From Falsiroseomonas tokyonensis (GTDB lineage: Bacteria; Pseudomonadota; Alphaproteobacteria; Acetobacterales; Acetobacteraceae): DNA of 64,000 nucleotides. The DNA is taken from contig NZ_JAFNJS010000001.1 in the NCBI RefSeq assembly GCF_019024325.1, forward strand, positions 1,178,001 to 1,242,000, given 5' to 3'. Below are positions 24,553 through 42,731 of the stretch, in pieces. The notes beneath the pieces were generated by a model that saw only the letters and a program-made list of their open reading frames with translations, made no database searches and had not been told where the DNA came from. Every line of letters starts with the position of its first letter. Position 1 is the stretch's first letter. Made by a program: the position numbers and the translations under genes.

Positions 24553-25494
24553 TCAGCCGCCCGGCGCGCCCTGGGTGTTCACATAGAGGCTGTAGAGCGA
24601 ATGCGCCGCCGCCATGAACAGCCGGTTCCGGTGCCGCCCGCCGAAGCACACATTGGCGCAGCGTTCCGGCAGGTCGATGAAGCCGATCGGCGTGCCGGCG
24701 GCATCGAACACCTTCACCCCGTCCAGCCCCGGCGCGCCCATGCCCCAGCCGCACCAGAGATTGCCGTCCACATCCACCCGGAAGCCGTCCGGCGTCTCGC
24801 CCGGCGCGCATTTCACGAAGACGCGGCGGCGGCTGAGTTTTACGCCATCGCAGTCGAAGGCCAGGATGTTCCGCGGCTCCGACCGGCTCTCGATGACGTA
24901 GAGGATCTTTTCGTCGGGGCTGAACGCCAGGCCGTTCGGATGGTCGACATCATCCGCGACCAGCGTGATCTGGCCCGTGGTGCCGTCCACGCGGTAGACG
25001 TTGGTGTGCGGCAACTCGGGAGAATGCTTCTCGCCCTCATAGAAACCGCCGATACCGAAGGGCGGGTCGGTGAACCAGATGCTGCCGTCGGACTTCACCA
25101 CCACGTCGTTCGGGCTGTTCAGCCGCTTGCCCTGGTAATTGTCCGCAATGACGGTGATGGCGCCGTCATACTCGATGCGGATGACGCGCCGGCCGCCATG
25201 CTCGCAGGCGACGATGCGGCCCTGGCGGTCGCGCGTATGGCCATTGGCGTTGCCCGACGGCTTGCGGAAGTGGGTGACCTGCCCCGTCTCCTCGTCCCAG
25301 CGCAGCACGCGGTTATTGGGAATGTCGGACCACAGCAGGCAGCGTTGGTCACCGAGCCAGACGGGGCCCTCGCCCCAGCGGCTGCCGGTCCAGAGCCGCT
25401 CCACCGAGCTCAGCGGCAGGCGCAGCTTGTTGAAGGCCGGGTCCAGGGTCCGGATGGCGGGGTCCGGGTAGCGCAGGCTTTCCTGCCAGGTCAT
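24553..25494 (-). CDS. SMP-30/gluconolactonase-family lactonase
   Basis: A 313-aa six-bladed beta-propeller of the SMP-30/gluconolactonase/LRE family, which hydrolyses sugar lactones to acids with a divalent metal. Likely ligands are Glu in 'SRWGEGPVW', Asn in 'RLNSPNDVVV', and the Asn and Asp of 'DHPNGLAFSPD'. No signal peptide, so cytoplasmic. ATG 25494 follows a strong GAGGAGGAG site. Divergent from the epimerase-tetR pair, it fits as the lactone-opening step of the adjacent catabolic island. Confidence 0.87.
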   Translation of the reverse strand: MTWQESLRYPDPAIRTLDPAFNKLRLPLSSVERLWTGSRWGEGPVWLGDQRCLLWSDIPNNRVLRWDEETGQVTHFRKPSGNANGHTRDRQGRIVACEHGGRRVIRIEYDGAITVIADNYQGKRLNSPNDVVVKSDGSIWFTDPPFGIGGFYEGEKHSPELPHTNVYRVDGTTGQITLVADDVDHPNGLAFSPDEKILYVIESRSEPRNILAFDCDGVKLSRRRVFVKCAPGETPDGFRVDVDGNLWCGWGMGAPGLDGVKVFDAAGTPIGFIDLPERCANVCFGGRHRNRLFMAAAHSLYSLYVNTQGAPGG

Positions 25495-25577
25495 CGCGAT
25501 CTCCTCCTCGGGCCCGGCGGTCTTGGCGACGGGCATGGTCCTCGTCATGCTGGCGCGATATCGCCGGGAGGGGAACC

Positions 25578-26603
25578 ATGACCGATCTGCCAAAGCGCAT
25601 CGCCGATGAGGCGGCGCTGGAGGAGGTGATGTCGCGCCCCGACCCGGCGCTGATCGCCGACCTGGCCCGCGTGCCGGGGGACATCCTGGTGCTCGGCGCC
25701 GCCGGCAAGATGGGTCCGACGCTGTGCCGCCTGGCCAAGCGCGCCGACCCGGCGCGGCGCGTCATCGCCGTGGCGCGCTGGTCCGAGGCCGGGCTGCGGG
25801 CGCGGATGGAGAGCTGGGGCATCGAATGCCTCGCCGCCGACCTGATGGACGACGCGGCGCTGGCGGCGCTGCCGGATGCGCCGAACGTGGTCTTCATGGC
25901 GGCGATGAAATTCGGCAGCACGGGGAATGAGGCGCTGACCTGGGCGATGAATGTGCAGCTGCCGGCCCGCGTCGCGGCGCGCTGGGCGGCCTCGCGCATC
26001 GTCTTCTTCTCCACCGGCAATGTGCTGCCGATGTGGCCGGTGAACGGACCAATGCCGGATGAGGATGCGACGCCCGCCCCGATCGGCGACTATGCCGCGA
26101 GCTGCCTCGGCCGCGAACGTGCCTTCCAGCATGCCGCCGCCACCCGCGGCACGCGCTGCTTCGGCATCCGCCTGAACTACGCCATCGACCTGCGCTACGG
26201 CGTGCTGCATGACATCGCCACCAAGGTCCTGGCCGGCACGCCGGTGCCGCTGGCCATGGGGCATGCGAACGTCATCTGGCAGGGCGATGCCAATGCCTGG
26301 ACTCTGCGCGCCCTGGCCGCCGCCGAGGAAAGCTGCCCGATCCTGAACGTGACGGGGCCGGAGACCGTTTCGGTGCGCTGGCTGGCGGAGCAATTGGCGC
26401 AGCGCATGGACCGCACGCCGGAATTCGCGGGGACGGAGGCGCCGAATGCGCTGCTCTCCAACGCCGCCCGCGCCTTCGCCCGCTTCGGCTACCCCCGCGT
26501 GCCGCTGCTGGTGCTGGTGGATTGGGTGGCGGACTGGGTCGCCAGCGGCGGCCGGGCGCTGGGCAAGGCGACGAAATTCGAGGTCCGGGATGGCCGCTTC
26601 TAG
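25578..26603 (+). CDS. NAD(P)-dependent epimerase/dehydratase-family (extended SDR-like) protein
   Basis: A 341-aa protein. After an unusual 33-residue N-terminal extension comes the Rossmann motif 'DILVLGAAGKMGPTL' (about residues 35-49), 'AADLMDDAAL' and 'NVVFMAAMKFGSTGN'. The normal SDR Tyr-x3-Lys is not obvious: 'GDYAASCLGRER' has Tyr but Arg or Gly at the Lys position, so catalysis may differ. Its last 14 bp overlap the tetR gene. The context (lactonase, aldolase, dehydrogenases) points to sugar or sugar-acid metabolism. Confidence 0.75.
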   Translation: MTDLPKRIADEAALEEVMSRPDPALIADLARVPGDILVLGAAGKMGPTLCRLAKRADPARRVIAVARWSEAGLRARMESWGIECLAADLMDDAALAALPDAPNVVFMAAMKFGSTGNEALTWAMNVQLPARVAARWAASRIVFFSTGNVLPMWPVNGPMPDEDATPAPIGDYAASCLGRERAFQHAAATRGTRCFGIRLNYAIDLRYGVLHDIATKVLAGTPVPLAMGHANVIWQGDANAWTLRALAAAEESCPILNVTGPETVSVRWLAEQLAQRMDRTPEFAGTEAPNALLSNAARAFARFGYPRVPLLVLVDWVADWVASGGRALGKATKFEVRDGRF

Positions 26604-27243
26604 CACCACGATCCGCGCGCAGGGCGAACTCTCCGCCCGCGCCCGCGCGACGCGCCAGCGCATCCTGGATGCGGCGCTGGTGGAATTCGCCGAGAAGGGC
26701 ATGGCCGGCAGCCGCGTGGACGAAATCGCCGCCCGCGCCGGCGCCAACAAGCGCATGCTCTACGCCTATTTCGGCAGCAAGGAGGAGCTGTGGCTGACGG
26801 TGCTGGAACGCGCCTATGCCGCGAAGCGGGAGGAGGAGCGGGAGCTTTCGGTGGACAGCCTGCCGCCGCTGGAGGCGATGGTGCGCCTCGTGGCCTTCAA
26901 CCTGCGCTACACCAGCCGCCACCCCGAATTCGTGGCCCTGCTGAACCAGGAAAACCTGCACCGCGCCGCCTATCTGAGCCGGTCGGAACATGTACCGGCG
27001 CTCTATTCCCCGATGCTGGAGGCGCTGACCACGGTGCTGGCGCGCGGCGCTGCGGCGGGTATCTTCCGCGACGGGGTGGACGCCATGCAGCTCTATATCT
27101 CCATCCTCGCCTTGGGCCATTTCTACGTCGCCAATCGCCACACCCTGTCCACCATCTTCGGCACGCCGCTGGACACCGAAGCCGCCATCGCGGCGCGGGA
27201 GGCGCATATCTCCGACTTCGTCCTGGGCTACCTACGGCCTTGA
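26590..27243 (+). CDS. TetR-family transcriptional regulator
   Basis: A 217-aa regulator. The HTH is at residues about 18-64 ('RQRILDAALVEFAEKGM', 'RVDEIAARAGANKRMLYAYF'), with a helical ligand domain resembling the AcrR/RutR-like C-terminal group behind it. ATG 26590 lies within the end of the epimerase gene. A 16-bp palindrome (27267-27282) begins 23 bp after its stop, directly before the aldolase operon, and a near-identical one precedes the TctC-B-A operon. TetR is the natural candidate to bind both. Confidence 0.9.
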   Translation: MAASSTTIRAQGELSARARATRQRILDAALVEFAEKGMAGSRVDEIAARAGANKRMLYAYFGSKEELWLTVLERAYAAKREEERELSVDSLPPLEAMVRLVAFNLRYTSRHPEFVALLNQENLHRAAYLSRSEHVPALYSPMLEALTTVLARGAAAGIFRDGVDAMQLYISILALGHFYVANRHTLSTIFGTPLDTEAAIAAREAHISDFVLGYLRP

Positions 27244-27266
27244 CCTGACCGCCCGGCCGAGACAAA

Positions 27267-27282
27267 GTAACCGCCTGGTTAC
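27267..27282. promoter_or_regulatory. Candidate operator site 1 (GTAACC-N4-GGTTAC)
   Basis: GTAACC-GCCT-GGTTAC is a perfect interrupted palindrome, extended by one further A:T pair on each side. It ends 21 bp before the GTG start of the aldolase gene and overlaps where a -10 box or transcription start would lie (TTGACC at 27240-27245 could be the -35). The same sequence pattern occurs at 38481-38496. It is the likely operator of the TetR protein encoded immediately upstream. Confidence 0.7.
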
Positions 27283-27303
27283 TGGTTGGCGGGGGGAAAC
27301 ACC

Positions 27304-28344
27304 GTGGGTCTGCGCTGGCAGGACTGGCCCGAAAACGTGCTGGCGCGGCTGCGGGCCGGCTGCGCCATCCCGGCGCATCCGCTGGCGCTGAATGCGCGGC
27401 GGGAATTGGACCCGCTGCGCCAGCGCGCGCTGTCCCGCTACTACCTTTCGGCCGGCGCCGGCGGGCTCGCCGTGGGCGTCCACACCACGCAATTCGCCAT
27501 CCGCCAGGTCGGGCTGTTCGACCGCGTGCTGTCCCTGGCCGCCGAGGCCGCGAGTGAGCGGGATGACGCGCCCATCCTGGTCGCCGGCGCCATCGGCCGC
27601 ACGGAGCAGGCGGTGCGGGAGGCGCGGATCGCCCGCGGCCTCGGCTACCACGCGGTGCTGCTGAGCCTCGCCGCCTGGAAGGGCGCCTCGGAGGACGAGA
27701 TCATCGCGCATTGCGCGGCGGTGGCGGCCGAGATGCCGGTCTTCGGCTTCTACCTGCAGCCGGCGGTGGGCGGCGTGAAGCTGCCGCTGTCCTTCTGGCG
27801 CCGCTTCGCCGCGATCGAGAATGTGGTCGCCATCAAGATGGCGCCCTTCGACCGCTATGCGACGCTGAACGTTCTGCGCGGCGTGCTCGAAGCGGGGGCG
27901 GTGGACCGCATTTCCCTCTATACCGGCAACGACGATCACATCGTCGCCGATCTGCTGACGCCCTTCGCGCTGGCCGGCGCCAAGACGCCGCTCCGCATCC
28001 TGGGCGGGCTGCTGGGGCATTGGAGCGTCTGGACCAAGGCCGCTGTCGACCTGCATGCGCGCTGCTGCGGCGCCGATGCCACGCCCGAATTGCTGGCGCT
28101 GGATGCGCAGGTGACGGAGATGAACGCCGCCGTCTTCGACGTGGCGCATAGCTTCCACGGCGTCATCGCCGGCTGCCACGAGATTTTGCGCCGCCAGGGC
28201 CTGCTGGAGGGCATCTGGTGCCTCGACCCGGCCGAGAGCCTCTCGCCGGGCCAGGCCGAACTGCTGACCACGGTGGCGCAACGCTACCCGCATCTGACGG
28301 ACGATGCCTTCGTCCGCGCGAACCTCAACACCTGGCTCTCCTGA
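27304..28344 (+). CDS. Dihydrodipicolinate synthase-family aldolase/lyase
   Basis: A 346-aa class I (Schiff-base) aldolase-superfamily protein. Lys178 in 'ENVVAIKMAPFDR' aligns with the DapA Schiff-base lysine, and Tyr150 in 'FGFYLQPAVGG' with the catalytic Tyr; their 28-residue spacing equals that of E. coli DapA. Members of this type often cleave 2-keto-3-deoxy sugar acids rather than make dihydrodipicolinate. GTG 27304 is chosen over TTG 27286 because GGGGGGAAA sits 4-12 bp before it. First gene of a five-gene operon behind operator site 1. Confidence 0.85.
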   Translation: MGLRWQDWPENVLARLRAGCAIPAHPLALNARRELDPLRQRALSRYYLSAGAGGLAVGVHTTQFAIRQVGLFDRVLSLAAEAASERDDAPILVAGAIGRTEQAVREARIARGLGYHAVLLSLAAWKGASEDEIIAHCAAVAAEMPVFGFYLQPAVGGVKLPLSFWRRFAAIENVVAIKMAPFDRYATLNVLRGVLEAGAVDRISLYTGNDDHIVADLLTPFALAGAKTPLRILGGLLGHWSVWTKAAVDLHARCCGADATPELLALDAQVTEMNAAVFDVAHSFHGVIAGCHEILRRQGLLEGIWCLDPAESLSPGQAELLTTVAQRYPHLTDDAFVRANLNTWLS

Positions 28345-28359
28345 AGGATATTGGCAAAC

Positions 28360-29514
28360 ATGGCGGAACGCCGCATCGGCCTCATCATGAACGGCGTCAC
28401 CGGACGCATGGGCATGAACCAGCACCTGATCCGCTCCATCGCGGCGATCCGCAAGGATGGCGGCGTGATGCTGAAGAACGGGGATCGCGTGATGCCCGAC
28501 CCCATCCTGGTCGGCCGCAACAAGGAAAAGCTGGAGGCGCTGGCGAAGGCGCATGGCATCTCCCGCGTCTCGACGGACCTCGACGCCTGCCTGGCCGATC
28601 CGAAGGACACGCTGTTCTTCGACGCCGCGACCACGCAGATGCGCGCCGGCCTGCTGACCAAGGCGATCGAGGCCGGCAAGGACATCTATTGCGAGAAGCC
28701 GACCGCCGACAGCCTGGCCGATGCCATGGCCGTCGCGCGGCTGGCGAAGCAGAAGGGCATCAAGGCCGGCGTGGTGCAGGACAAGCTGTTCCTGCCGGGC
28801 CTGCGCAAGCTGAAGATGGCGATCGACAGCGGCTTCTTCGGCAAGATCCTCAGCGTGAAGGGGGAGTTCGGCTACTGGGTCTTCGAGGGCGACCTGCAGC
28901 CCGCCCAGCGCCCGTCCTGGAACTACAAGAAGGATGAGGGCGGCGGCATCATCCTCGATATGCTCTGCCACTGGCGCTATGTGCTGGATAATCTCTTCGG
29001 CAATGTCGAGAGCGTCTCCTGCCTCGGCGCGACGCATATTGAGACGCGCATCGATGAGTCGGGAAAACCCTATAAGGCGGATAGCGATGACGCGGCCTAT
29101 GCGACCTTCCAGCTGGAAGGCGGCGTGATCGCGCATATCAACTCCAGCTGGGTGACGCGGGTGCGGCGCGACGACCTGGTGACCTTCCAGGTCGACGGCA
29201 CGCATGGCAGCGCGGTGGCAGGCCTGCAGAAGTGCTGGACCCAGTCGCGCGTGAACACGCCGAAGCCGGTCTGGAGCCCCGACACGCCGCAGCCTATCAA
29301 CTTCTACGAGGGCTGGCAGGAAATCCCAGACACCGAGCCGATGCCCAATGGTTTCCGCGTGCAGTGGGAGCTGTTCTTCAAATACCTGGCCGGCGAAGTC
29401 GCGACCTATCCCTGGGATCTGCTGGCCGGCGCCAAGGGCGTGCAGCTGGCGGAGGCCGGGCTGCAGAGCTGGGCGGAGCGCCGCTGGATCGATCTGCCGA
29501 AGCTGGAGGTGTGA
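28360..29514 (+). CDS. Gfo/Idh/MocA-family oxidoreductase
   Basis: A 384-aa NAD(P)-dependent dehydrogenase. The Rossmann domain has 'GLIMNGVTGRMGMNQHL', and the family EKP motif is in 'DIYCEKPTADS'. The C-terminal substrate domain includes 'GGGIILDMLCHWRYVLDNLFG', with a candidate catalytic Asp/His pair. The family oxidises sugars, inositols or related polyols at one hydroxyl. ATG 28360 is preferred over TTG 28351 on ribosome-site spacing (GAAGGA). The gene continues directly into the DUF993 gene. Confidence 0.88.
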   Translation: MAERRIGLIMNGVTGRMGMNQHLIRSIAAIRKDGGVMLKNGDRVMPDPILVGRNKEKLEALAKAHGISRVSTDLDACLADPKDTLFFDAATTQMRAGLLTKAIEAGKDIYCEKPTADSLADAMAVARLAKQKGIKAGVVQDKLFLPGLRKLKMAIDSGFFGKILSVKGEFGYWVFEGDLQPAQRPSWNYKKDEGGGIILDMLCHWRYVLDNLFGNVESVSCLGATHIETRIDESGKPYKADSDDAAYATFQLEGGVIAHINSSWVTRVRRDDLVTFQVDGTHGSAVAGLQKCWTQSRVNTPKPVWSPDTPQPINFYEGWQEIPDTEPMPNGFRVQWELFFKYLAGEVATYPWDLLAGAKGVQLAEAGLQSWAERRWIDLPKLEV

Positions 29515-29516
29515 GC

Positions 29517-30662
29517 ATGCCCACCATCAAGCTGCCCGAGGGCGATTACACCCTGAAGGGCCCGCGCGATTTCCCGAAGGCGACGCCGCCTTTTCCGCGC
29601 GTCGCACTCGCCGCCGCGCATGTCGTGGCGGACACGATGGCCGAGCAGGACCCGTGGCTCGACGCCAAGATCGACTGGGACCGCACCATCGCCTTCCGGA
29701 AGCACCTGTGGTCGCTGGGCCTCGGCGTGGCGGAGGCGATGGACACGGCGCAGCGCGGCATGGGCCTCGATTGGACGGCGGCGCAGGAGCTGATCCGCCG
29801 CTCACTGGACGCGATGCAGGACCATCCCGGCGCGGTGATGGCCAGCGGCGCCGGCACGGACCACCTCGCACCCGGCCCCGACGTGACCGTGGACGATGTG
29901 ATCCGCGCCTATGAGGAGCAGTGCGAGGCCGTGGAGGCGATGGGCGGCCGCATCATCCTGATGGCCTCGCGCGCTTTGGCGAAAGCCGCGAAATCGCCGG
30001 CGGATTACGAGCGCGTCTATGACCGCATCCTGTCCCAGGTGAAGCAGCCCGTCGTCATCCACTGGCTGGGCGAAATGTTCGACCCGGCGCTGGAAGGTTA
30101 TTGGGGCAATCACGACCACATGGCGGCGATGGAGACCGCCCTGAAGGTCATCCACGCCCATGCCGACAAGGTCGATGGCGTGAAGGTCTCGCTGCTGGAC
30201 GACCAGAAGGAGATCTCGATGCGCCGCCGCCTGCCGAAGGGCGTGCGCATGTACACCGGCGACGACTTCAACTACGCGGAACTCATCGCCGGCGACAGCC
30301 ACGGCTATTCCGACGCGCTGCTCGGCATCTTCGACCCGATCGCGCCGGCGGTGGGCGGTGCGCTGGCCAGCCTCGCGAAGAACGACCTCTCGACCTTCCA
30401 CGACATCCTGGCGCCGACGGTGCCGCTGAGCCGCCATATCTTCAAGGCGCCGACGCGCTTCTACAAGACGGGCGTGGTCTTCATGGCCTGGCTGAACGGC
30501 CACCAGGACCACTTCGTCATGATCGGCGGCCAGCAATCCACCCGCAGCATCCGCCATTTTTCGGAATTGTTTCGCCTGGCCGACAAGGCCGGCCTGCTGC
30601 GGGATCCGGACATGGCGGTGGCGCGGATGCGGAACCTGCTCGCGCTGCACGGTGCCGCCTGA
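29517..30662 (+). CDS. DUF993 protein, dihydrodipicolinate-synthase-like TIM barrel
   Basis: A 381-aa protein of the DUF993 family, annotated as distant dihydrodipicolinate synthase relatives. Notable segments are 'VMASGAGTDHLAPGP', 'PVVIHWLGEMFDPAL', 'VDGVKVSLLDDQKE' (Lys223, a possible Schiff-base residue) and 'VFMAWLNGHQDHFVMIGG'. Function is unproven. GGAGGT precedes ATG 29517. It is placed between a MocA-type dehydrogenase and a sugar isomerase in one operon, so a second aldolase or lyase step is an inference from context only. Confidence 0.82.
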   Translation: MPTIKLPEGDYTLKGPRDFPKATPPFPRVALAAAHVVADTMAEQDPWLDAKIDWDRTIAFRKHLWSLGLGVAEAMDTAQRGMGLDWTAAQELIRRSLDAMQDHPGAVMASGAGTDHLAPGPDVTVDDVIRAYEEQCEAVEAMGGRIILMASRALAKAAKSPADYERVYDRILSQVKQPVVIHWLGEMFDPALEGYWGNHDHMAAMETALKVIHAHADKVDGVKVSLLDDQKEISMRRRLPKGVRMYTGDDFNYAELIAGDSHGYSDALLGIFDPIAPAVGGALASLAKNDLSTFHDILAPTVPLSRHIFKAPTRFYKTGVVFMAWLNGHQDHFVMIGGQQSTRSIRHFSELFRLADKAGLLRDPDMAVARMRNLLALHGAA

Positions 30663-31468
30663 TGGAGATGTCGCTGAACACCGTCACGGTGAGGGAGAAA
30701 TGGGGCCTCGCCGACTGTATCGAGGGCTGTGCGCGGCACGGTATCCCCGCCATCTCGCCCTGGCGTGACGTGCTGCAGGCCATGGGCGTGGAGCGTGCCG
30801 CAAAGCAGATCCGCGATGCCAGCCTCGCGGTCAGCGGGTTGTGCCGCGGCGGCATGTTTCCGGCCGCCGATGCCGCTGGCCGCGCCGCGGCCATCGAGGA
30901 CAATCTGCGGGCCATCGAGGAAGCGCACACCATCGGCGCCGCCTGCCTGGTGATGGTGTGTGGTGGCCTGCCGCCGGGTTCCAAGGATCTGCCCGGCGCG
31001 CGCGCCATGGTGCGCGATGGGCTCGCCGCCATCATGCCAGCGGCGCGCGCCGCCGGCGTGACCATCGCGCTGGAGCCGCTGCATCCCATGACCTGCGCGG
31101 ACCGCTCCGTGCTGTCGACGCTCGGCCAGGCGCTCGACCTCTGCGACGAATTCGGCGAAGGCATGGGCGTCGCGCTCGATGTCTACCACGTCTGGTGGGA
31201 CCCGCAGCTGGAAGCGCAGGTCGCGCGCGCCGGTTCGCGCATCGCCGCCTTCCATGTCTGCGACTGGAAGGTGCCGACGCTCGACACCGTCTTCGATCGC
31301 GGCATCCCTGGCGAAGGCTGCATCGACATCCCCGCCATCCGCCGCATGGTGGAAGCGCAGGGCTACGACAGCTTCGCCGAGGTCGAGATCCTGTCGAAGC
31401 ACTGGTGGCAGCAGGACCCGGACCAGGTGCTGCCCCTGCTGAAGGAACGCCACGCCTCCGCCGTCTGA
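30662..31468 (+). CDS. Sugar phosphate isomerase/epimerase-family TIM barrel
   Basis: A 268-aa xylose-isomerase-like TIM barrel (AP endonuclease 2 superfamily, IolE/IolI-like). The expected metal ligands are in place: Glu in 'VTIALEPLHPM', Asp/His in 'VALDVYHVWWD', His in 'AAFHVCDW' and Glu in 'FAEVEI'. It probably isomerises or epimerises a keto-sugar made by the MocA dehydrogenase. ATG overlaps the DUF993 stop by 1 bp; a second ATG lies 6 bp further on. Confidence 0.85.
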   Translation: MEMSLNTVTVREKWGLADCIEGCARHGIPAISPWRDVLQAMGVERAAKQIRDASLAVSGLCRGGMFPAADAAGRAAAIEDNLRAIEEAHTIGAACLVMVCGGLPPGSKDLPGARAMVRDGLAAIMPAARAAGVTIALEPLHPMTCADRSVLSTLGQALDLCDEFGEGMGVALDVYHVWWDPQLEAQVARAGSRIAAFHVCDWKVPTLDTVFDRGIPGEGCIDIPAIRRMVEAQGYDSFAEVEILSKHWWQQDPDQVLPLLKERHASAV

Positions 31469-32530: not shown

Positions 32531-33097
32531 ATGCCTTCGCTGCCCCGCTGGGCCTGGATCGCCATCCTGCTCGGCCTGCTCGCCGCCACCGTGCTCATCC
32601 TGCTGGCCATGGGGCGGGAGCCGATCTGCAAATGCGGCAGCATCAAGCTGTGGCATGGCGAGGTCATCAGTGCCGAGAATTCGCAGCACATCACGGACTG
32701 GTACACGCCCAGCCACATCGCGCACGGGCTGATCTTCTACGCCGCCCTGCACCTGGTGGCGCGCCGCCTCGGCCTGCTGCCGCGCGCCGCCATCGCGACG
32801 GTGGTGGAGGCGGGGTGGGAGATCGTCGAGAACACCGATGCGGTGATCCAGCGCTACCGCGAGGCGACCATCGCGCTGGACTATTTTGGTGACAGCGTCC
32901 TGAATTCCGGCTTCGACATCGTCGCCATGTGGCTGGGCTTCGCGCTGGCCGCGCGGCTGCCGGTCTGGGGCAGCGTCGCGCTGCTGCTGGCGATGGAGGT
33001 GGGCGTCGCGCTGGTGATCCGCGACAACCTCACCCTGAATGTGCTGATGCTGCTTTGGCCGCTGGATGCCGTGAAGGAATGGCAGGCGGCGAGGTAG
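32531..33097 (+). CDS. UPF0314/DUF2585 family membrane protein
   Basis: A 188-aa protein with about five hydrophobic segments and the family signature 'CKCGSIKLWHGEVIS...SQHITDWYTPSHIAHG' (residues about 33-68, split here). DUF2585/UPF0314 is a small alphaproteobacterial family of unknown function. The position between two arms of the catabolic island may be incidental. It is convergent with the M20 gene, 1 bp apart. Confidence 0.85.
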   Translation: MPSLPRWAWIAILLGLLAATVLILLAMGREPICKCGSIKLWHGEVISAENSQHITDWYTPSHIAHGLIFYAALHLVARRLGLLPRAAIATVVEAGWEIVENTDAVIQRYREATIALDYFGDSVLNSGFDIVAMWLGFALAARLPVWGSVALLLAMEVGVALVIRDNLTLNVLMLLWPLDAVKEWQAAR

Positions 33098-34295: not shown

Positions 34296-34308
34296 GCGTC
34301 TCTCCAAC

Positions 34309-35736: not shown

Positions 35737-36548
35737 GTCTCGAGGATTCCCCGCAGATAGCCGATCGCCCGTGCGGCGCTGGTTGCGCCGTCGGGATGAT
35801 GGTCGAAAGGCTCCACGGCGCAGAAGCCGGAATAGTCGCAATCCTGCAGGGCATCGAGCACCGGACGGAAGGCATCGCGCCCCTGGCCGGGGCCGCGGCG
35901 GTTGCGGTCGTTCAGATGCACATGCGCGATCTGCCCGCCGGGGATGAAGCGGCGCAGCAGCGCGGCCGCGCTGGCCTGCTCGCCATTCCCGGCGGCGCTA
36001 ACATCCAGCATGGTCTTCAGAGCCGGCGTGCCGATGCGCGTGACGATCTCCACCGCCTCCGCCAGGCTGCTGGCCCAGTTGGTCTGGCCGGCATCGAGCG
36101 GTTCCAGGCAGTAGGTCACGCTGTGCTGCGCCGCCCAGCCGCCGGCCTGCGCCATCGCCTCCTCCGCCCGCTGCGCATCGCCCTCGGCGGCCACGACGCG
36201 CTGCTTCGGCGATCCATGCACCAGCAGCGTGGCGCCGAGATCGGCGGCCAGGCCCACCAGCCGCTGCATCACCTCCAGCGTGCGCGCACGCAGCGTGACA
36301 TCGGCGCTGGTGATCGAAAGCCCCGCGGGCGCCAGCAGCAACCAATGCAGTGACGTGATCGGCGCGCCTTCCTCCTGCGCCATGCGCCGCAGCTCCGCAC
36401 GCCGCGCCGCCGGCAGCAGATGCGGCGCTTCGGCATCCAGCGTGAAGGGCGCGACTTCCAGCCCATCATAGCCCAGCGCCGCGGCAAGCCGCGCCTGTTC
36501 GTGGAAAGGCAGGCCAGCGACCACTTCGTTGCAGAGCGAGATGCGCAT
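35733..36548 (-). CDS. Sugar phosphate isomerase/epimerase-family TIM barrel (second copy)
   Basis: A 271-aa xylose-isomerase-like barrel. Ligands: Glu in 'VTYCLEPLDAGQTNW', Asp in 'MLDVSAAG', His in 'QIAHVHLNDRN' and Glu in 'FCAVEPF'. It is only distantly similar to the isomerase at 30662-31468, so the two probably handle different steps. Its ATG overlaps the MocA gene stop by 1 bp and its stop overlaps the enolase-like start by 4 bp. Confidence 0.86.
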   Translation of the reverse strand: MRISLCNEVVAGLPFHEQARLAAALGYDGLEVAPFTLDAEAPHLLPAARRAELRRMAQEEGAPITSLHWLLLAPAGLSITSADVTLRARTLEVMQRLVGLAADLGATLLVHGSPKQRVVAAEGDAQRAEEAMAQAGGWAAQHSVTYCLEPLDAGQTNWASSLAEAVEIVTRIGTPALKTMLDVSAAGNGEQASAAALLRRFIPGGQIAHVHLNDRNRRGPGQGRDAFRPVLDALQDCDYSGFCAVEPFDHHPDGATSAARAIGYLRGILET

Positions 36549-37558
36549 TATGTCAATAACTCCTGGACGCGCATCTCATGCGCGGATCGCCGCGCGGCGT
36601 CCAGTATGCGCAGCGGCAGCACGCCGCCCTCGTAAAGATCCGGTCCCCGCTTCACGCGCGTCGCCACGGCATTGAGGAAGGCCGCAAGCTGCGCCGCCAC
36701 CACGCCCACCGGGTCCAGCGCCGCCGCGCCGAGATCCTCGGCCGGCGCATGGTCCGGCAGCCAGGCACCACTGGCCGCGGGATGATGCGCGCCGCGGCGC
36801 AGGCGCAGCGTCTCCGCCATGAAATCCACCTCGGCCAGCGCGGCGCTGCCGGCCACGGCCAGCAGCTTGCGGGTTTCCGCGCCGGGCACCACGGCATCGG
36901 CGTGTTCGCCGGGCAGCACGCAGCCGGCCTCGACCAGCGCGGTGGCGCCGGAGGGGAAGCGCAGCTGTATCACTGCCAGATCCTCCCGCCCCCGTCGCAG
37001 CGGGTCGGACAGGGTGGCGAAGACATGGCTTGGCGCCTCGCCGGCGATCCAGGGCAGCAGGTCGGCGAAATGCACCGCATCGTTCAGCAGCGCGCCGGAA
37101 TCGCCGCGTGCGCGCTTCAGCCCGGACATGCGCGCCGAGAGGTGATGGATGCGCCCGAAGCCGCCCGCGCGCGCCAGGCGATGGATGGCCTGCGCCTTGG
37201 GATGGAAGCGGAAGAACAGGCCGAGCTGCACGATGCGGCCGCGCGCTTCCGCCAGTTCATGGAGCATCGCGGACTCCGCCGCGGTCTCCGTCGCCGGCTT
37301 TTCGAGGAACAGGTCGCGGCCCGCACGCAGCGCGGCCTCCGCCAGCGCGACATGGGTGGCGGGGGGCGTCGCGATCAGCACCGCCTCGCAGTCCCGCAGC
37401 GCCGTGTCGAGATCCGCGGCGAAGCGCGTGCCGGGTGGCGCCGCCGCGCGCATCGCCGCATCGGGCTCCAGCACCAGGGCCTCCCGCCCCAGCCGCGCCA
37501 GCGCCGCCAGGTGGACGCGCCCGAAGGCGCCGCAGCCGAGGAGCAACAGGCGGGTCAT
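36548..37558 (-). CDS. Gfo/Idh/MocA-family oxidoreductase (second copy)
   Basis: A 336-aa dehydrogenase. The N-terminal 'LLLLGCGAFGRVHLAALARLG' is a Rossmann GxGxxG, with the EKP motif in 'DLFLEKPATETAAE'. The substrate domain has 'GALLNDAVHFADLLPWI', which contains the His of the catalytic region. It is the first gene of the minus-strand operon (MocA, isomerase, enolase-like, M20), whose promoter region carries a LacI-type palindrome. Confidence 0.88.
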   Translation of the reverse strand: MTRLLLLGCGAFGRVHLAALARLGREALVLEPDAAMRAAAPPGTRFAADLDTALRDCEAVLIATPPATHVALAEAALRAGRDLFLEKPATETAAESAMLHELAEARGRIVQLGLFFRFHPKAQAIHRLARAGGFGRIHHLSARMSGLKRARGDSGALLNDAVHFADLLPWIAGEAPSHVFATLSDPLRRGREDLAVIQLRFPSGATALVEAGCVLPGEHADAVVPGAETRKLLAVAGSAALAEVDFMAETLRLRRGAHHPAASGAWLPDHAPAEDLGAAALDPVGVVAAQLAAFLNAVATRVKRGPDLYEGGVLPLRILDAARRSAHEMRVQELLT

Positions 37559-37586: not shown

Positions 37587-37602
37587 GGTCAAGCGCTTGA
37601 CC
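37587..37602. promoter_or_regulatory. Candidate LacI/GalR-type operator
   Basis: GGTCAAGCGCTTGACC is a perfect 16-bp palindrome centred on AAGCGCTT, the core shape of LacI-family operators. It lies 29-44 bp upstream of the MocA start on the minus strand and 30-45 bp before the divergent GNAT gene. No LacI-family gene is in the window, so the regulator would be encoded elsewhere. Confidence 0.6.
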
Positions 37603-37631: not shown

Positions 37632-38450
37632 ATGTTCGATGTCCGGGCCGCGATCGCCGAGGATCTGCCGCGCGCCGCGGCGCTTTCCGCCGCCATCGGC
37701 TGGAACCAGGTGGCGGCGGACTGGGCCTTCTTCCTGCGCCACGGCGATCTGCGCGTGCTGGAGGATGGCGCGGGGGAGGCGCTGGCCGCCAGCGCGGCGC
37801 TGCTGCCCTATGGCGAGGCGCTTGCCTGGATCTCCATGGTGCTGGTGCGGCCGGACCAGAGGCGCCGCGGCCTGGCCAGCGCGCTGCTGCGCTGGGCCAT
37901 GGATGCGCGGCCGGGCCGCACGCTGGTGCTGGATGCGACGCCGGCGGGGCGGGCGGTCTACGGCCCGCTCGGCTTCGTCGATGTCTTCGGCCTGGCCCGC
38001 TGGCTGCTGCCCAAGGACCTTGCGCGCCCGCCGGGCATCGCGGTGCGGCCGCTGGCCGTGGCGGATTGGCCTGAGCTGCTGGCGCTGGATGCCGCCGCCT
38101 TCGGCGCCGATCGCGTGCCGCTGCTGCGCGACTTCGAAAAGCGCCTGCCGCGGGCGGCCTGGGTGGCGCCAGGCGGCTATGTGCTGGCGCGCGATGGCCG
38201 CCTGACGCCACAGATTGGCCCCGTGGTGGCGCAGGATGCGGCCACCGCGCTGGCACTGGTTGCCGCCGCGCGGGCGGCGCTGGCCCAGCCCGCGGTGCTG
38301 GATGTGCCGGATCACGCCACGGCGCTGACGCAGGCCCTTTCAGCGCAGGGCGGCGTCCTGCAGCGACCGTTCACGCGCATGGCGATCGGCGCGATGCCAG
38401 CTGCGCAATCCGGGAAAAACTTTGTGCTCGCAGGGCCGGAGTTCGGTTGA
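37632..38450 (+). CDS. GNAT N-acetyltransferase with two GNAT-like halves
   Basis: A 272-aa protein. The first half has the acetyl-CoA motif 'VLVRPDQRRRGLASALLRWAM' (about residues 72-92) and 'YGPLGFVDVFGL'. The second half ('AVRPLAVADWPELLALDAAAFGADR' onward) resembles a GNAT_acetyltran-like second domain. Substrate unknown. It is divergent from the MocA operon across a 73-bp spacer holding the LacI-type palindrome, and 69 bp before the TTT operon. Confidence 0.8.
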   Translation: MFDVRAAIAEDLPRAAALSAAIGWNQVAADWAFFLRHGDLRVLEDGAGEALAASAALLPYGEALAWISMVLVRPDQRRRGLASALLRWAMDARPGRTLVLDATPAGRAVYGPLGFVDVFGLARWLLPKDLARPPGIAVRPLAVADWPELLALDAAAFGADRVPLLRDFEKRLPRAAWVAPGGYVLARDGRLTPQIGPVVAQDAATALALVAAARAALAQPAVLDVPDHATALTQALSAQGGVLQRPFTRMAIGAMPAAQSGKNFVLAGPEFG

Positions 38451-38480: not shown

Positions 38481-38496
38481 GTAACCGGTGGGTTAC
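38481..38496. promoter_or_regulatory. Candidate operator site 2 (GTAACC-N4-GGTTAC)
   Basis: GTAACC-GGTG-GGTTAC, extended by one G:C pair on each side, has the same arms and spacer length as the site at 27267-27282. It ends 23 bp before the ATG of the TctC-like gene, compared with 21 bp at site 1. The shared sequence and placement suggest that one regulator controls the aldolase operon and the transporter operon together. Confidence 0.7.
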
Positions 38497-38519: not shown

Positions 38520-39536
38520 ATGAGCATGTCGATCAATCGCAGGATGCTGCTGGCGGCGACGGGCATGGGCCTCGCCGCGCCGAGGCTCGGCCGGGCGCAG
38601 GGATCCTGGCGTCCTGACCGGCCGGTGACGATCATCGTGCCCTGGGCCGCCGGCGGCTCCACCGACCAGATGGCGCGCATCGTGGCGGCGGAGCTCGAAG
38701 CCGCACTCGGCCAGCGCTTCGTCGTGGTGAACCAGCCCGGCGCCTCCGGCTCCATCGGCACGCGCAATGCGCTGGAAGCGGCGAAGGACGGCATGACCTG
38801 GGCGGCCGGCGCCGCCGTCGATGTCGGCTGCTACAAGGTGCTCGGCCTGCTCGATACGGAGCTGAAGGACTGGAACCTGTATTTCGCGGTCGCCAATGTG
38901 AATGTGCTGGTGGCCAATCCTTCGGCGAATATCCGCGACTTCGGCGCGGCGATGGAAGCCTTCCGATCGCGCGGCGCCAGCCTTTCGGTCGCCACCGCCG
39001 GCGTTTCCTCCGCCGGGCACAATATGATGGAGGCGATCCGCGCCGCATCGCAGGTGCAGTACCGCCACGCCACGTATGACGGCGGCAATCCGGCGATGAT
39101 CGCAACCGTGGGCGGCGAGACGCAGATGGGCGCGGTGCTGCTGGTGGAGGCGGCGGAGATGATCCGCGCGCGCCGCCTGATCCCGCTCGCGGTGCAGTCG
39201 GAACAGGCCGTCACGTTGCAGGGCGTGGGCGAGATCCCCTCGATCCGCCGCTGGCTGCCGAATGTGCCGGCGCCGCTGAACTATTTCGGCATCTGGACGC
39301 CGAAGGGCGTGCCGGAGAATGTCATCGCGACGATGAACCAGGTCTGGCAGGAGAAGATTGCCAATAGCCAGCGCCTGAAGACCTATGCGAATGAGCGCGC
39401 AGCTGTCTTCGCGCCGCTCTACGGCCAGCAGGCCTATGACGAGGCCTGGAAGATGGTGCGGCAGACCGCCTGGCTCTACTTCGATGGCGGCAAGGCGCGG
39501 GTCAGCCCGGATACGCTGGGCATCGCAAGGCTTTGA
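38520..39536 (+). CDS. Tripartite tricarboxylate transporter substrate-binding protein (TctC/Bug)
   Basis: A 338-aa receptor with a Tat-like leader (INRRMLLAATGMG, cleavage near GRAQG). Family strands: 'RPVTIIVPWAAGGSTDQMAR' and 'LGQRFVVVNQPGASGSIGT'. It is more divergent from the other three Bug proteins in the window and is the true partner of the downstream TctB and TctA. First gene of the operon behind operator site 2. Confidence 0.88.
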   Translation: MSMSINRRMLLAATGMGLAAPRLGRAQGSWRPDRPVTIIVPWAAGGSTDQMARIVAAELEAALGQRFVVVNQPGASGSIGTRNALEAAKDGMTWAAGAAVDVGCYKVLGLLDTELKDWNLYFAVANVNVLVANPSANIRDFGAAMEAFRSRGASLSVATAGVSSAGHNMMEAIRAASQVQYRHATYDGGNPAMIATVGGETQMGAVLLVEAAEMIRARRLIPLAVQSEQAVTLQGVGEIPSIRRWLPNVPAPLNYFGIWTPKGVPENVIATMNQVWQEKIANSQRLKTYANERAAVFAPLYGQQAYDEAWKMVRQTAWLYFDGGKARVSPDTLGIARL

Positions 39537-40048
39537 GCGGCGGCAGCGACCAGGCGCCGCTTTCACCGCGCGCCGATCTCTACGTCGCGGCGGTGCTGCT
39601 GGCGCTGGGCCTCGGGGTGATGGCGCTGGCCTGGCGCATGCCGACCTTCGTCGAGCAATCCGGCACGGGGCTGACGGCGCCGGGCATCGTGCCGGGCTTC
39701 CATGCCACCGTCGTCGCCGTGCTTGCCGTGCTGCTGGGGCTGCGCGCGATCCGGCAGGGGGCGCTGAAGGCCGGCACCCAGCGCGCCGGGGGTGGGGGCG
39801 GGGCGGATGCCTGGCGCCTGGCCATCGCCGCCACGCTCGGCGTGCTCTATGCCGGCGTGCTGGTCGGGCGGCTGCCCTTCTGGCTGGCCACCGCGCTTTT
39901 CGTCTTCAGCTTCACCGCGGCCTTCGAATGGTCCGTGGGGCCGGCGCGCCGGGTGCGGCGGCTGGCGGAGGCGGCGCTGCTGGGGCTCGCCACCGGGGGC
40001 ATCGTGACGCTAGTCTTCGAACGGATCTTCCTGGTGCGCCTGCCTTGA
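39533..40048 (+). CDS. tctB: TctB-family small membrane subunit of a tripartite tricarboxylate transporter
   Basis: A 171-aa protein with four hydrophobic helices, typical of TctB: 'LYVAAVLLALGLGVMALAW' at the start, a 'GTGLTAPGIVPGF' periplasmic loop, and 'ATLGVLYAGVLVGRLPFWL'. It starts at TTG in a 4-bp TTGA overlap with the receptor gene, implying coupled translation. It works with TctA in proton- or sodium-coupled uptake of carboxylates. Confidence 0.85.
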   Translation: MSGGSDQAPLSPRADLYVAAVLLALGLGVMALAWRMPTFVEQSGTGLTAPGIVPGFHATVVAVLAVLLGLRAIRQGALKAGTQRAGGGGGADAWRLAIAATLGVLYAGVLVGRLPFWLATALFVFSFTAAFEWSVGPARRVRRLAEAALLGLATGGIVTLVFERIFLVRLP

Positions 40049-40058
40049 GGATGCCCGC

Positions 40059-41567
40059 GTGAACAATCCCATCACCATGTTGGGCGACGGCTTCGCCCAT
40101 GTGCTGCAGGGCGGCGCCGTCTTCCATGCCTTCTGGGCGGTGCTGATCGGCATCGTCGTCGGCGCGCTGCCGGGGCTGACGGCGACCATGGGCGTGGCGC
40201 TGCTGACCACGCTGACCTTCACCATGGGCCCGAATGTGGCGATGCTGGTGCTGGTCTGCGTCTATGTCGGCGCGATCTATGGCGGCAGCCGATCGGCCAT
40301 CCTGCTGAACATCCCCGGCACGCCGGCCTCCGCCGCCTCCACGCTGGATGGCTTTCCGCTGGCGAAGCAGGGCTTGGCTGGGCGGGCCATGGGCATTTCC
40401 ACGCTGGGGTCCTGGTGCGGCACGCTGTTCGGCACGCTGATCCTGGCGATGTTCGCGCCGAGCTTCGGCGAATTCGCGCTGCAATTCGGCAGCTACGAGA
40501 TGTTCTGGGTGGCGCTGTTCGGCATCGTCATCGCCGGCAGCCTCTCGGGCGGCGATCCGCTGAAGGGCTATATCGCGGGCTTCCTCGGCCTGTTGGTGGC
40601 AACCGTGGGGCAGGAGACGAACCACGCCTATGCCCGCTTCGCCTTCGGCAATGCGGACCTGGCCGGCGGGCTCGGCCTGTTGCCGGTGCTGGTCGGCGTC
40701 TTCGGCGTGGCGGAGGTGCTGAACGCCATGCGCGGCCCGGCGGTGAAGGCCGTGTCGTCGAAGATCGACAGCGTCATCCCGCGCATCCGCGACGTGACGC
40801 AGTACTGGCGCACCATCTTCCGCTCCGGCGCGCTGGGCACCTTCATCGGTGCGATGCCGGGTCTCGGCGAGGATATCGCGGCCTGGACCAGCTATGCCGC
40901 GGCCAAGCGCGCCTCGAAGGAGAAGGAGCTGTTCGGCAAGGGCAGCGTCGAAGGGCTGATGGCGGCGGAGACCGGCGAGAGCGCCTGCGTGCCCGGCGCC
41001 ATCATCCCGGTGCTGACGCTGGCCGTGCCGGGTTCCGCGCCGGCGGCCGTGCTGATGGCGGCAATGATGATCCACGGGCTGAATCCGGGGCCGATGCTGG
41101 CGATCACCGCGCCAGAATTTATCTACCAGATCGTCGCCATGCTGGTGATCGCGGACATGGTGAAGCTGCTCTACGGGCTGGTGCTGGTGAAGCCTTTGTT
41201 GTGGGTGCTGTTGATCCCCCGTGCGCGGCTGATGCCGGTGGTCTTCGTGCTGTGCACCGTGGGCGCCTTCGCCATCACCTCCCGCCTGTTCGACATCTGG
41301 GTGATGCTGGGCGCGGGCCTCGTCGGCTTCATCCTGCGCGAGCTGCGCTTCCCCATGGCGCCGCTGGTGCTGGGCATCGTGCTGGGCGATCTGCTGGACA
41401 AGAACCTGCTGCGCGGCCTGGTGCTGACCGGCGGCGATGTCTCGCCCTTCTTCACGCGGCCGATCAGCATGGCGCTGTGTGCGCTGACGCTGCTGGCGGT
41501 GGCCTGGGCGATCCCGGGCTTCGTGCCGCGGGTGATGGGGCTGATCAGGCGGCGCGCGGCCGCCTGA
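40059..41567 (+). CDS. tctA: TctA-family large membrane subunit of a tripartite tricarboxylate transporter
   Basis: A 502-aa protein with about 11-12 helices. It has the two TctA signatures: 'GALPGLTATMGVALLTTLTF' near residue 33, and 'YVGAIYGGSRSAILLNIPGT' near residue 70. A second half-repeat, 'GAMPGLGEDIAAW', lies around residue 268. GTG 40059 follows TGAGGA. Completes the only full TTT system in the window; the three orphan Bug proteins nearby may also feed it. Confidence 0.93.
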   Translation: MNNPITMLGDGFAHVLQGGAVFHAFWAVLIGIVVGALPGLTATMGVALLTTLTFTMGPNVAMLVLVCVYVGAIYGGSRSAILLNIPGTPASAASTLDGFPLAKQGLAGRAMGISTLGSWCGTLFGTLILAMFAPSFGEFALQFGSYEMFWVALFGIVIAGSLSGGDPLKGYIAGFLGLLVATVGQETNHAYARFAFGNADLAGGLGLLPVLVGVFGVAEVLNAMRGPAVKAVSSKIDSVIPRIRDVTQYWRTIFRSGALGTFIGAMPGLGEDIAAWTSYAAAKRASKEKELFGKGSVEGLMAAETGESACVPGAIIPVLTLAVPGSAPAAVLMAAMMIHGLNPGPMLAITAPEFIYQIVAMLVIADMVKLLYGLVLVKPLLWVLLIPRARLMPVVFVLCTVGAFAITSRLFDIWVMLGAGLVGFILRELRFPMAPLVLGIVLGDLLDKNLLRGLVLTGGDVSPFFTRPISMALCALTLLAVAWAIPGFVPRVMGLIRRRAAA

Positions 41568-41629
41568 ATAGCGCGTCCTATCTGCGGCCCGTAGGGCCGA
41601 GCGCGCGAATGCGCGCCGCGGCATCTGCG

Positions 41630-41719: not shown

Positions 41720-41724
41720 GAGGG

Positions 41725-41747
41725 GCGGGAAGGTGAAACCTTCCCGC
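41725..41747. terminator. Candidate bidirectional terminator hairpin
   Basis: GCGGGAAGGT-GAA-ACCTTCCCGC is a 10-bp perfect stem with a 3-nt loop. It lies 9 bp from the stop of the Bug gene and between two convergent transcripts. No strong U tract is present. Confidence 0.55.
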
Positions 41748-41756
41748 GGTTCCAAA

Positions 41757-42731
41757 TCAGTCCAGCTTGATGTTCAGCTCGCGGATCTTGCGCCCCCAGA
41801 AGGCGTGTTCCGCCTTCACCGCCTCGAACCACACGCCGCGCGGACGCACCGGGGCGGGTTCCAGCCCGTCCTGCTCCAGCCGATTGGCGAAGCGGGGATT
41901 GGCCGCGGCCTGGCGCGCCGCCGTCTCCAGCCGCTCCATCTGGTCGGCCGGGATGCCGGCCGGGGCGAAAATGCCGTGCCAGCCGGTGATGGAGACGCCG
42001 GGCAGGCCGGCCTGGGCCAGCGTCGGCACCTCCGGCAGCGTGGCGATGCGGCCGTCGCCGGTCACCGCGATGGCGCGCAGCCGCCCCTCCCGTGCCAGCT
42101 GGATGGCTGGCGGCGGGGAGGAGAAGTTCATGGTGATGCGCCCGCCCACCACATCCAGCAGTGCGGGCCCGGTGCCGCGATAGGGGATATGCTCCATCTC
42201 CACGCCGACCGCATCGCTGAACAGCACGCCGGCCAGGTGGTTGGCATTGCCGACGCCGCCCGAGGAATAGGTCAGCTCCCCCTTCGGCTTGCTGCGGGCA
42301 TAGGCGATCAGCTCCTGCAGCGTATTGATCGGCAGGCGCGGGTCGATCACCAGCACATATTGGTAGGAGGTCACCTGCGCCACCGGTGCCAGGCCGGTGA
42401 TGAGGTCCACGCCGTCGCCGCGCTGCATATGCGGGTTCACCACCAGGTTGGTGGAGACGGCGAACAGCAGGGTCAGCCCATCCGGCCGGGCGCGCGCCAC
42501 GCTGACCGAGCCGATATGCCCCGCCGCGCCGCCGCGATTCTCCACCACCACGGTCTGCCCGCCCAGCGCTTCGCTGAGCGAATGGGCGAATTCGCGGGCG
42601 GTCAGGTCGGTGCCGCCGCCCGGGGCATAGGGCACCACCAGCACGACGGGGCGGGTTTGCGCCAAGGCGGGGGCGGCGAGGGCGAGGCCACCGGTGGCGC
42701 CCAGCAGGGTGCGGCGGGAGAGGCTTTTCAT
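41757..42731 (-). CDS. Bug-family tripartite tricarboxylate transporter substrate-binding protein
   Basis: A 324-aa receptor with a Tat-like signal (SRRTLLGATGGLALAAPALAQ). Bug motifs: 'RPVVLVVPYAPGGGTDLTAR', 'LGGQTVVVENRGGAAGH' and 'MEHIPYRGTGPALLDVVGG'. It is an orphan receptor convergent with tctA. The ligand cannot be told; proximity suggests it shares the TctAB channel. Confidence 0.9.
   Translation of the reverse strand: MKSLSRRTLLGATGGLALAAPALAQTRPVVLVVPYAPGGGTDLTAREFAHSLSEALGGQTVVVENRGGAAGHIGSVSVARARPDGLTLLFAVSTNLVVNPHMQRGDGVDLITGLAPVAQVTSYQYVLVIDPRLPINTLQELIAYARSKPKGELTYSSGGVGNANHLAGVLFSDAVGVEMEHIPYRGTGPALLDVVGGRITMNFSSPPPAIQLAREGRLRAIAVTGDGRIATLPEVPTLAQAGLPGVSITGWHGIFAPAGIPADQMERLETAARQAAANPRFANRLEQDGLEPAPVRPRGVWFEAVKAEHAFWGRKIRELNIKLD

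Follow-up and report, generated by a model that had tools for sequence, protein, structure and literature searches.

What does the catabolic-looking gene cluster of Falsiroseomonas tokyonensis do, and do its genes belong together? The cluster occupies 18 kb within a 64 000-nucleotide stretch (contig NZ_JAFNJS010000001.1, positions 1 178 001 to 1 242 000; hereafter the window). It includes genes for an enolase-superfamily protein, a DUF993 protein, a DapA-like aldolase, two Gfo/Idh/MocA dehydrogenases (GfoA and GfoB), two PF01261 barrels (XylA and XylB), a TetR regulator and a tripartite tricarboxylate transporter (TTT; TctC receptors, TctB and the permease TctA). An earlier reading of the sequence (the original prediction) described it as an oxidative catabolic island with its own TTT uptake system. 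The gene set, which has the look of an uptake and breakdown pathway for a hydroxylated acid, is very likely a real unit. Its parts are co-inherited, and the DapA-GfoA-DUF993-XylA-TctC1 and TctC2-TctB-TctA operons carry the same palindrome near their starts. We give a probability of roughly 0.6 to the reading in which the whole is a TetR-controlled catabolic regulon for a polyhydroxylated carboxylic acid, with the chemistry proposed below.

Recurrence of the gene set in other genomes

Named genomes were searched with an alignment of the enolase-like family. At least 546 relatives were found and the best 80 were kept; contigs were cut at up to 10 kb per side and many were shorter. Among these best 80 of at least 546 matches, Falsiroseomonas species were the closest named relatives by the enolase-like gene, and the host (6.16 Mb, 70% G+C) groups with Falsiroseomonas (Acetobacteraceae). 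XylB was present at 63 of the 80 loci, TctA at 36, TctC2 at 33, the GNAT acetyltransferase at 32, DUF993 at 31 and DapA at 30. A short-chain dehydrogenase/reductase (SDR), XylA and TctB were found at 28 loci each, TetR and GfoA at 27 each and GfoB at 15. The set composed of the enolase-like protein, two PF01261 barrels, Gfo, DUF993, the DapA-like aldolase, SDR, GNAT, TctCBA and TetR was found reshuffled across Alpha- and Betaproteobacteria, sometimes on a single strand.

Window proteins were also compared by tblastn with 28 DUF993 neighbourhoods of relatives (TctC1, TctC2 and TctC3 are best-paralogue labels in these comparisons and may be swapped in distant loci). A core of TetR-GfoA-DUF993-XylA was frequent, often with TctC1, and SDR, DapA, enolase, XylB, GNAT and TctC2BA formed an optional block. 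Thirteen genes lie on one strand in Marinimicrococcus flavescens (L119: TctC2-TctB-TctA-GfoB-XylB-enolase-SDR-GNAT-TetR-DapA-GfoA-DUF993-XylA). Eleven were found in a betaproteobacterial metagenome-assembled genome (MAG) (L142: TetR-GfoA-DUF993-XylA-SDR-DapA-TctC2-TctB-TctA-XylB-enolase) and nine on a plasmid of Nitratireductor thuwali (L059: TctC2-TctB-TctA-TetR-XylB-enolase-GfoA-DUF993-XylA). In Sinorhizobium fredii the enolase gene and DUF993 are neighbours. ATP-binding cassette (ABC) genes of the NMT1 type take the position of TctCBA in several betaproteobacterial loci, and a compact eight-gene operon, TetR-NMT1 ABC-enolase-GfoA-DUF993-XylA, was present at six of 16 further loci (L180, L181, L182, L184, L186 and L188). 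This exchange of importers suggests that it is the enzymes that define the unit, rather than the importer.

Co-occurrence was scored in two sets of genomes. Of 119 relatives, the host's own genome included, 29 had DUF993, and all 22 that had the enolase were among them. Counted by genus, the enolase occurred in 11 of 105, all within the 15 DUF993 genera (Fisher test, 3e-18 by genome and 5e-12 by genus, values that ignore kinship). The second set, 398 genomes drawn evenly from the phylum, had DUF993 in 36 and the enolase in 15, 14 of which also had DUF993; at most four candidates per genome were scored here, so misses are possible. As for the 80 enolase loci, DUF993 was in the locus in 31 cases. 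The search could be extended to 48 of the remaining 49 genomes, and DUF993 lay elsewhere in 39 of them (one copy being a contig-edge fragment only), which gives 70 of 79 enolase genomes with DUF993 overall. Gene distances were correlated (0.90-0.99 over 12 loci, with no control gene), a value not separable from shared ancestry and not used as evidence.

These counts bear on the gene list of the original prediction. Every protein class listed there was found at its place, and SDR, TetR and GNAT, which had been left out, belong to the set. The idea of a fixed 18-kb island holding every enzyme class needed did not hold: M20 was beside the enolase gene at one of the 80 loci, SMP-30 was present at nine and DUF2585 at six, and the two arms lay on different contigs in six of the 12 enolase-bearing genomes of the genus (linkage is not readable in one, G004, which is in 740 contigs). 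M20 and SMP-30 were rejected as conserved pathway parts. Scattering of homologues in related genomes, proposed as a check, was partly seen by position, but the phyletic pattern and the common operator described below hold the parts together.

A common palindrome before two operons

The palindrome GTAACC-N4-GGTTAC was spotted by reading intergenic DNA. Its only matches in the window at up to two mismatches are the sites at 27267 and 38481; two such matches were also obtained in three of 100 shuffles. Genome-wide (6.16 Mb), these two are the only perfect matches. One further match with one mismatch (C45:455836) had none of the query genes nearby. The 119 relatives contained 32 perfect sites in 26 genomes, versus 15 sites for a reversed-pattern control. 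DUF993-positive genomes (21 of the 29) contained 27 of the 32, each of which precedes DapA (5), GfoA (9), TctC2 (10) or NMT1-ABC genes (3). Each of the other five was in a different DUF993-negative genome; the only related gene next to any of them was a 34% ABC ATPase match in one. When the enolase/TctC2 arm and the DUF993 arm were on separate contigs, as in G001, G006, G008 and G009, a site with at most one mismatch was found on both.

A site was present within 200 bases upstream of 21 of 43 DapA copies, 22 of 73 GfoA copies and 26 of 47 TctC2 copies. None was found in that interval for DUF993 (0/97), XylA (0/74), enolase (0/109), GNAT (0/43), SDR (0/40) or SMP-30 (0/28), and letter-shuffled upstream segments gave no site. 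Of 77 non-identical site contexts, 59 have the sequence TTGAC 20-35 bases ahead of the site and one has it at offsets 41-56, a site between divergent genes being counted once per side. A palindrome behind TTGAC is the layout expected of a repressor site; a consensus scan found no sigma-70 promoter. The TetR gene lies beside the palindrome, which overlaps the start regions of the operons, as in TetR-operator pairs. Where a locus has a site, 36 of 37 distinct TetR proteins have the residues NKRM in the recognition-helix region; where it has none, 10 of 23 do (eight were not readable). From these sequence features, the adjacent TetR is likely the repressor acting on the palindrome.

TctA, TctB and TctC all score above their Pfam cut-offs and are encoded in one operon (TctC2-TctB-TctA), which makes this a TTT transporter. 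Bug receptors alone are cheap evidence, because the host genome has at least 150 TctC matches (169 candidates, 150 scored). Co-occurrence and the common operator together place the gene set above chance, and we regard it as nearly certain that the two operator-bearing operons form one regulon. The catabolic-looking unit with its own TTT uptake is therefore upheld: the set recurs, the enolase is found almost only where DUF993 is, and the same palindrome precedes the catabolic operon and TctC2BA.

Enzyme families

Proteins of the enolase superfamily (MR/MLE) share a K-x-K motif, three acidic metal ligands and a lysine on the second face. The window enolase-like protein had no Pfam match of its own, and its relatives from Nitratireductor (L059, 39% identical, 45.5 bits) and Sinorhizobium (L060, 50% identical, 30.3 bits) pass MR_MLE_C (PF13378, cut-off 29.4). 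K225, K227, D258, E293, D318, E319, K341 and K344 were invariant in an alignment of 37 sequences. The family thus fits the MR/MLE residue motif, and the KLK/D/E/D-E/K residues of the original prediction were read correctly. Matches in the PDB were weak (dipeptide epimerase, N-succinylamino acid racemase/o-succinylbenzoate synthase (NSAR/OSBS) and muconate cycloisomerases; best 22.5 bits, E 0.0005), and no sugar-acid dehydratase was matched among the solved chains. A relative 44-46% identical was seen on a Rhizobium leguminosarum plasmid and in a second genome (L063 and L185), beside a dipeptide-type ABC transporter, an IolB-like protein, a PF01261-like barrel and a hydroxyacid dehydrogenase; DUF993 was not in the locus.

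The DapA-like protein has the features of a class I aldolase of the dihydrodipicolinate synthase/N-acetylneuraminate lyase (DHDPS/NAL) type: it passes the PF00701 cut-off and keeps the Schiff-base lysine and the tyrosine. Y156 and K184 were invariant in 15 sequences; they are the Tyr150 and Lys178 pointed out earlier, the numbering now starting six codons further upstream. N-acetylneuraminate lyase was the nearest kin of the family (31.6 bits).

DUF993 has two invariant lysines, K225 and K319; the former was invariant in alignments of 17 and 18 sequences. Inspection by eye showed a resemblance to DapA around K225 (G-[VI]-K-x-S) and at a later TGDD, and the candidate Schiff-base position was placed in this way. 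Public records label DUF993 a 'dihydrodipicolinate synthase family protein'. Sequence comparisons, given below, did not confirm kinship of DUF993 with DapA. Glycerate kinase genes were near DUF993 at five of 11 annotated plasmid loci and five of 20 phylum-set loci, and C3-type products are suggested by their presence at this part of the loci. Two further settings of DUF993 recur: one with GMC, SDR and CUT1 sugar ABC genes, some with glycerate kinase (L202-L205, L209 and L215), and one with CoA-transferase, crotonase and aldehyde dehydrogenase, mostly with Gfo (L197-L201, L206 and L208). Literature searches for DUF993 found nothing, and the string 3JU2 gave one unrelated paper.

Ketose 3-epimerases and IolO bind their metal with a Glu/Asp/His/Glu set. 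XylA and XylB keep E139, D174 and E243 (XylA numbering), invariant in 14 sequences, and the His of the H-x-H-x-N-D stretch reads Gln in two of seven XylB sequences (L128 and L142). Curated models were missed. The IolO model (cut-off 300) gave 80.7 bits for XylB and 29.1 for XylA, and the psicose epimerase model (cut-off 300) gave 66.4 for XylB. GfoA and GfoB scored 61.7 and 30.2 bits with the levoglucosan dehydrogenase LgdA model NF052479 (cut-off 650). The inositol IolG model TIGR04380 was the best NCBIfam model for both, below its cut-off (68.6 and 80.7 bits versus 355).

Layout of the window

The genes are listed in Table 1; start codons were checked. One run on the (+) strand comprises SDR, TetR, DapA-like, GfoA, DUF993, XylA and TctC1, most of which overlap or nearly touch. 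A tight run on the (-) strand is transcribed in the order GfoB-XylB-enolase-M20. SMP-30 (-) comes first, DUF2585 (+) stands before M20, GNAT (+) is followed by TctC2-TctB-TctA (+), and TctC3 (-) is last. G+C content was 69.8% in the island and 70.9% in the remaining window, so that base composition gave no sign of recent import.

Table 1. Genes and predicted control elements of the cluster, in window coordinates.
Feature	Position	Strand	Remarks
SMP-30/SGL lactonase	24553-25593	(-)	196.8 bits; divergent neighbour, possible accessory
Extended SDR, NAD-dependent epimerase/dehydratase-like	25578-26603	(+)	PF01370 44.4 bits
TetR regulator (TetR_N + TetR_C_29), candidate repressor of the palindrome	26590-27243	(+)	Domain matches
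TTGAC element, -35-like by eye	27240-27244	(+)	27 bases before operator start
Palindromic operator (predicted), GTAACC-N4-GGTTAC	27267-27282		21 bases before DapA start codon
DapA-like (NAL/DHDPS) class I aldolase	27304-28344	(+)	PF00701 31.7 bits, cut-off 22.1
GfoA, Gfo/Idh/MocA dehydrogenase, core gene	28351-29514	(+)	PDB 3oqb 598.6 bits
DUF993, core gene	29511-30662	(+)	614.9 bits; PDB 4dnh 585.5 bits
XylA, PF01261 TIM barrel, core gene	30662-31468	(+)	136 bits; PDB 3ju2/SMc04130 318.5 bits
TctC1 receptor, operon end	31495-32466	(+)	PF03401 246.5 bits
DUF2585	32531-33097	(+)	Absent from the list of the original prediction
M20 amidohydrolase behind enolase, accessory	33099-34307	(-)	153.2 bits
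Enolase-superfamily protein	34309-35736	(-)	Residues K-x-K, D, E, D-E, K-x-x-K
XylB, PF01261 barrel nearest to ketose 3-epimerases	35733-36548	(-)	117.4 bits
GfoB, second Gfo/Idh/MocA, accessory	36548-37558	(-)	Family match
Two-domain GNAT acetyltransferase	37632-38450	(+)	PF18014 48.7 bits
Palindromic operator (predicted), GTAACC-N4-GGTTAC	38481-38496		23 bases before TctC2 start codon; TTGAC at 38447
TctC2 receptor	38520-39536	(+)	PF03401 64.8 bits
TctB	39533-40048	(+)	PF07331 43.5 bits
TctA permease	40059-41567	(+)	PF01970 460.4 bits
TctC3 receptor	41757-42731	(-)	TctC family

Within the genus, the position of SMP-30 next to TetR is conserved; the gene has no operator and possibly plays a local role. 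SMP-30, DUF2585 and TctC3 look lineage-local. Another perfect 16-base palindrome, GGTCAAGCGCTTGACC, lies between GfoB and GNAT (37587-37602); it may represent two back-to-back -35 elements. Elsewhere in the window, a 609-aa open frame (59881-61710, (-) strand) has coding-like codon positions and had no Pfam or PADLOC match.

Evidence against the reading and alternative explanations

Several observations weigh against a single TetR-controlled regulon with the proposed chemistry. DUF993 was missing in nine of the 48 searched enolase genomes, including MAGs and the complete chromosome of Mesorhizobium L-8-3, and one genome of the phylum set (G299) has the enolase without DUF993; an enolase module can therefore exist without DUF993. 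At one mismatch, the reversed control pattern had nine matches in the host genome versus three for the motif, so that only the perfect palindrome discriminates. No site was found for the GfoB-XylB-enolase-M20 arm of the window. The tie of this arm to the regulon comes from co-occurrence and from relatives, in which the enolase gene follows a site within one gene run (L121 and L125) or the enolase run is divergent from TctC2 across a site (L104 and L131). The six compact NMT1 ABC operons have no site at up to two mismatches (five are listed, at three or four). As for the chemistry, Pfam saw no DHDPS (PF00701) kinship in DUF993 even at E 1, and alignment of DUF993 with the DapA-like family by hhalign gave a probability of 2.4%. 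Glycerate kinase was near DUF993 at none of the 28 loci of the relatives and none of the 16 further fetched loci.

An alternative is that the genes belong to two modules with substrates of their own, which frequently come under a common regulator or occur in the same genome. One would be made of enolase-XylB-SDR-DapA-GNAT and a transporter and the other of TetR-GfoA-DUF993-XylA. The second module stands without the enolase in seven of the 29 DUF993 genomes (G002, G010, G014, G017, G041, G056 and G097) and recurs with GMC, SDR, CUT1 ABC or CoA-transferase genes, and the first occurs without DUF993 in the nine genomes just mentioned. DUF993 was nevertheless present in 22 of 22 enolase genomes among the relatives and 14 of 15 in the phylum set. 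Both modules are joined in the single-strand runs L119, L142, L121, L125 and L059, and the compact operon links the enolase directly with GfoA-DUF993-XylA. We therefore consider two independent modules unlikely, though a serious contender.

The family make-up of the window, with two Gfo and two PF01261 proteins, is that of operons for deglycosylation or anhydrosugar breakdown. In such a route a Gfo enzyme would oxidize C3, two PF01261 enzymes would carry out beta-elimination and hydration, and the second Gfo would reduce the product. The available parts of PMC7676230 and PMC10066097 describe the levoglucosan operon lgdA-lgdB1-lgdB2-lgdC as encoding Gfo/Idh/MocA oxidoreductases and PF01261 proteins, with a dedicated transporter; DUF993, enolase, DapA, SDR, GNAT and TTT are not mentioned for it there. 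The Agrobacterium OGE and PUE systems of puerarin deglycosylation consist of oxidoreductases and two 'sugar phosphate isomerases/epimerases' in one putative operon (PMC10628242). They act on glycosides, and no DUF993 or enolase partner is named in the part of that source available, the comparison being by description. Such a route would also suit the Sinorhizobium relatives, where additional Gfo genes and a CUT1 sugar ABC transporter lie next to GfoA-DUF993. Against it, both Gfo proteins fall far below the levoglucosan dehydrogenase cut-off, no more than 15 of the 80 enolase loci have GfoB, the importers at these loci are of the TTT or NMT1 type, and the compact operon has one Gfo and one PF01261 protein, yet the enolase and DUF993 in six of six. 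A pathway of this type is improbable here. These oxidation-elimination-hydration-reduction operons (levoglucosan, glycosides) are the nearest described kind. We do not class the present set as a member of them, because it missed the curated cut-offs and because the enolase and DUF993 are in all six compact operons.

Other known systems share parts of the set. Acid-sugar routes use an enolase-superfamily dehydratase and a DapA-type aldolase. The enolase-like and DapA-like proteins and the carboxylate transporter of the window resemble them, but the enolase-like protein weakly matches chains of the muconate-lactonizing type and no sugar-acid dehydratase. myo-Inositol catabolism (IolG, IolE and IolO families) also combines Gfo and PF01261 enzymes, but the Gfo, XylA and XylB scores are below the IolG and IolO cut-offs. 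On plasmid pAO1 of Paenarthrobacter nicotinovorans, homologues of GfoA (57%) and DUF993 (48%) are adjacent; unlike the present set, they are accompanied by GMC oxidoreductase, aldehyde dehydrogenase, glycerate kinase and a ribose-type ABC transporter, with no enolase. A role of the pAO1 cluster in oxidative xylose breakdown has reportedly been proposed. DUF993, GfoA and XylA have clear homologues among structural-genomics orphans (4dnh, 3oqb and 3ju2/3qc0, respectively), named 'uncharacterized protein', 'oxidoreductase' and 'sugar isomerase' in the search results with no function stated. We take SMc04132 and SMc04133 to be the DUF993 and Gfo genes of S. meliloti. SMc04132, SMc04133 and SMc04135 are listed in tables of PMC12542648. 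In agreement with the original prediction, no named pathway with this set was found in the literature searched, although some multi-term queries could miss names written with slashes.

In the N-acylamino acid scheme, a Geobacillus-type route, a GNAT enzyme acylates, an enolase-like NSAR racemizes and an M20 enzyme deacylates. GNAT, an MLE-like enolase and M20 are together in the window, and the weak PDB matches of the enolase include dipeptide epimerase and NSAR/OSBS. With M20 at one and GNAT at 32 of the 80 enolase loci, and no role for Gfo, PF01261 or DUF993, this scheme is very improbable. A chance gathering of unrelated catabolic genes, for which the richness of the genome in such genes (TctC) and the separate arms in half of the genus genomes having both could be cited, is contradicted for the two operator-bearing operons by co-occurrence and the common operator and can practically be dismissed; M20, SMP-30, DUF2585 and TctC3 may yet be chance neighbours.

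Proposed regulon and its significance

The favoured explanation is a TetR-controlled regulon whose substrate is a polyhydroxylated carboxylate. The TetR protein encoded just upstream would bind the palindrome and be released when a pathway intermediate binds to it. TctC2 or TctC1, with TctBA, would import the acid. The enolase-like protein would then take the proton next to the carboxylate, leading to epimerization or dehydration, and a Gfo enzyme would oxidize a hydroxyl to a ketone. The PF01261 barrels, with their bound metal, could shift or eliminate next to this ketone. Finally, DUF993, with the DapA-like aldolase where present, might form a Schiff base through its conserved lysine and cut a C-C bond, giving C3-type fragments. 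We infer the order of these steps, the substrate and any DUF993 activity; the substrate may or may not belong to the class first proposed (sugars, polyols or sugar acids).

A more specific proposal is offered tentatively, at less than even odds. DUF993 may be a new class of Schiff-base C-C lyase, and the four enzymes enolase-GfoA-DUF993-XylA the core of a so far undescribed pathway acting on a widespread hydroxylated carboxylate. TTT, NMT1 and sugar ABC importers would be interchangeable in serving this core, which in Acetobacteraceae would be organized as a two-promoter regulon under one TetR.

A neighbourhood guess thus becomes a testable regulon with two operator sites, one regulator, two receptors and a four-enzyme core. 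Structures have been solved for DUF993 and two of its partners with no function stated, and knowing which genes act together points to a substrate screen with the receptors and the TetR ligand. The eight-gene operon of other bacteria would make a small construct. Should the substrate prove to be an acid common in plants, algae or soil, the pathway would close a gap in how carbon cycling is annotated in Alpha- and Betaproteobacteria.

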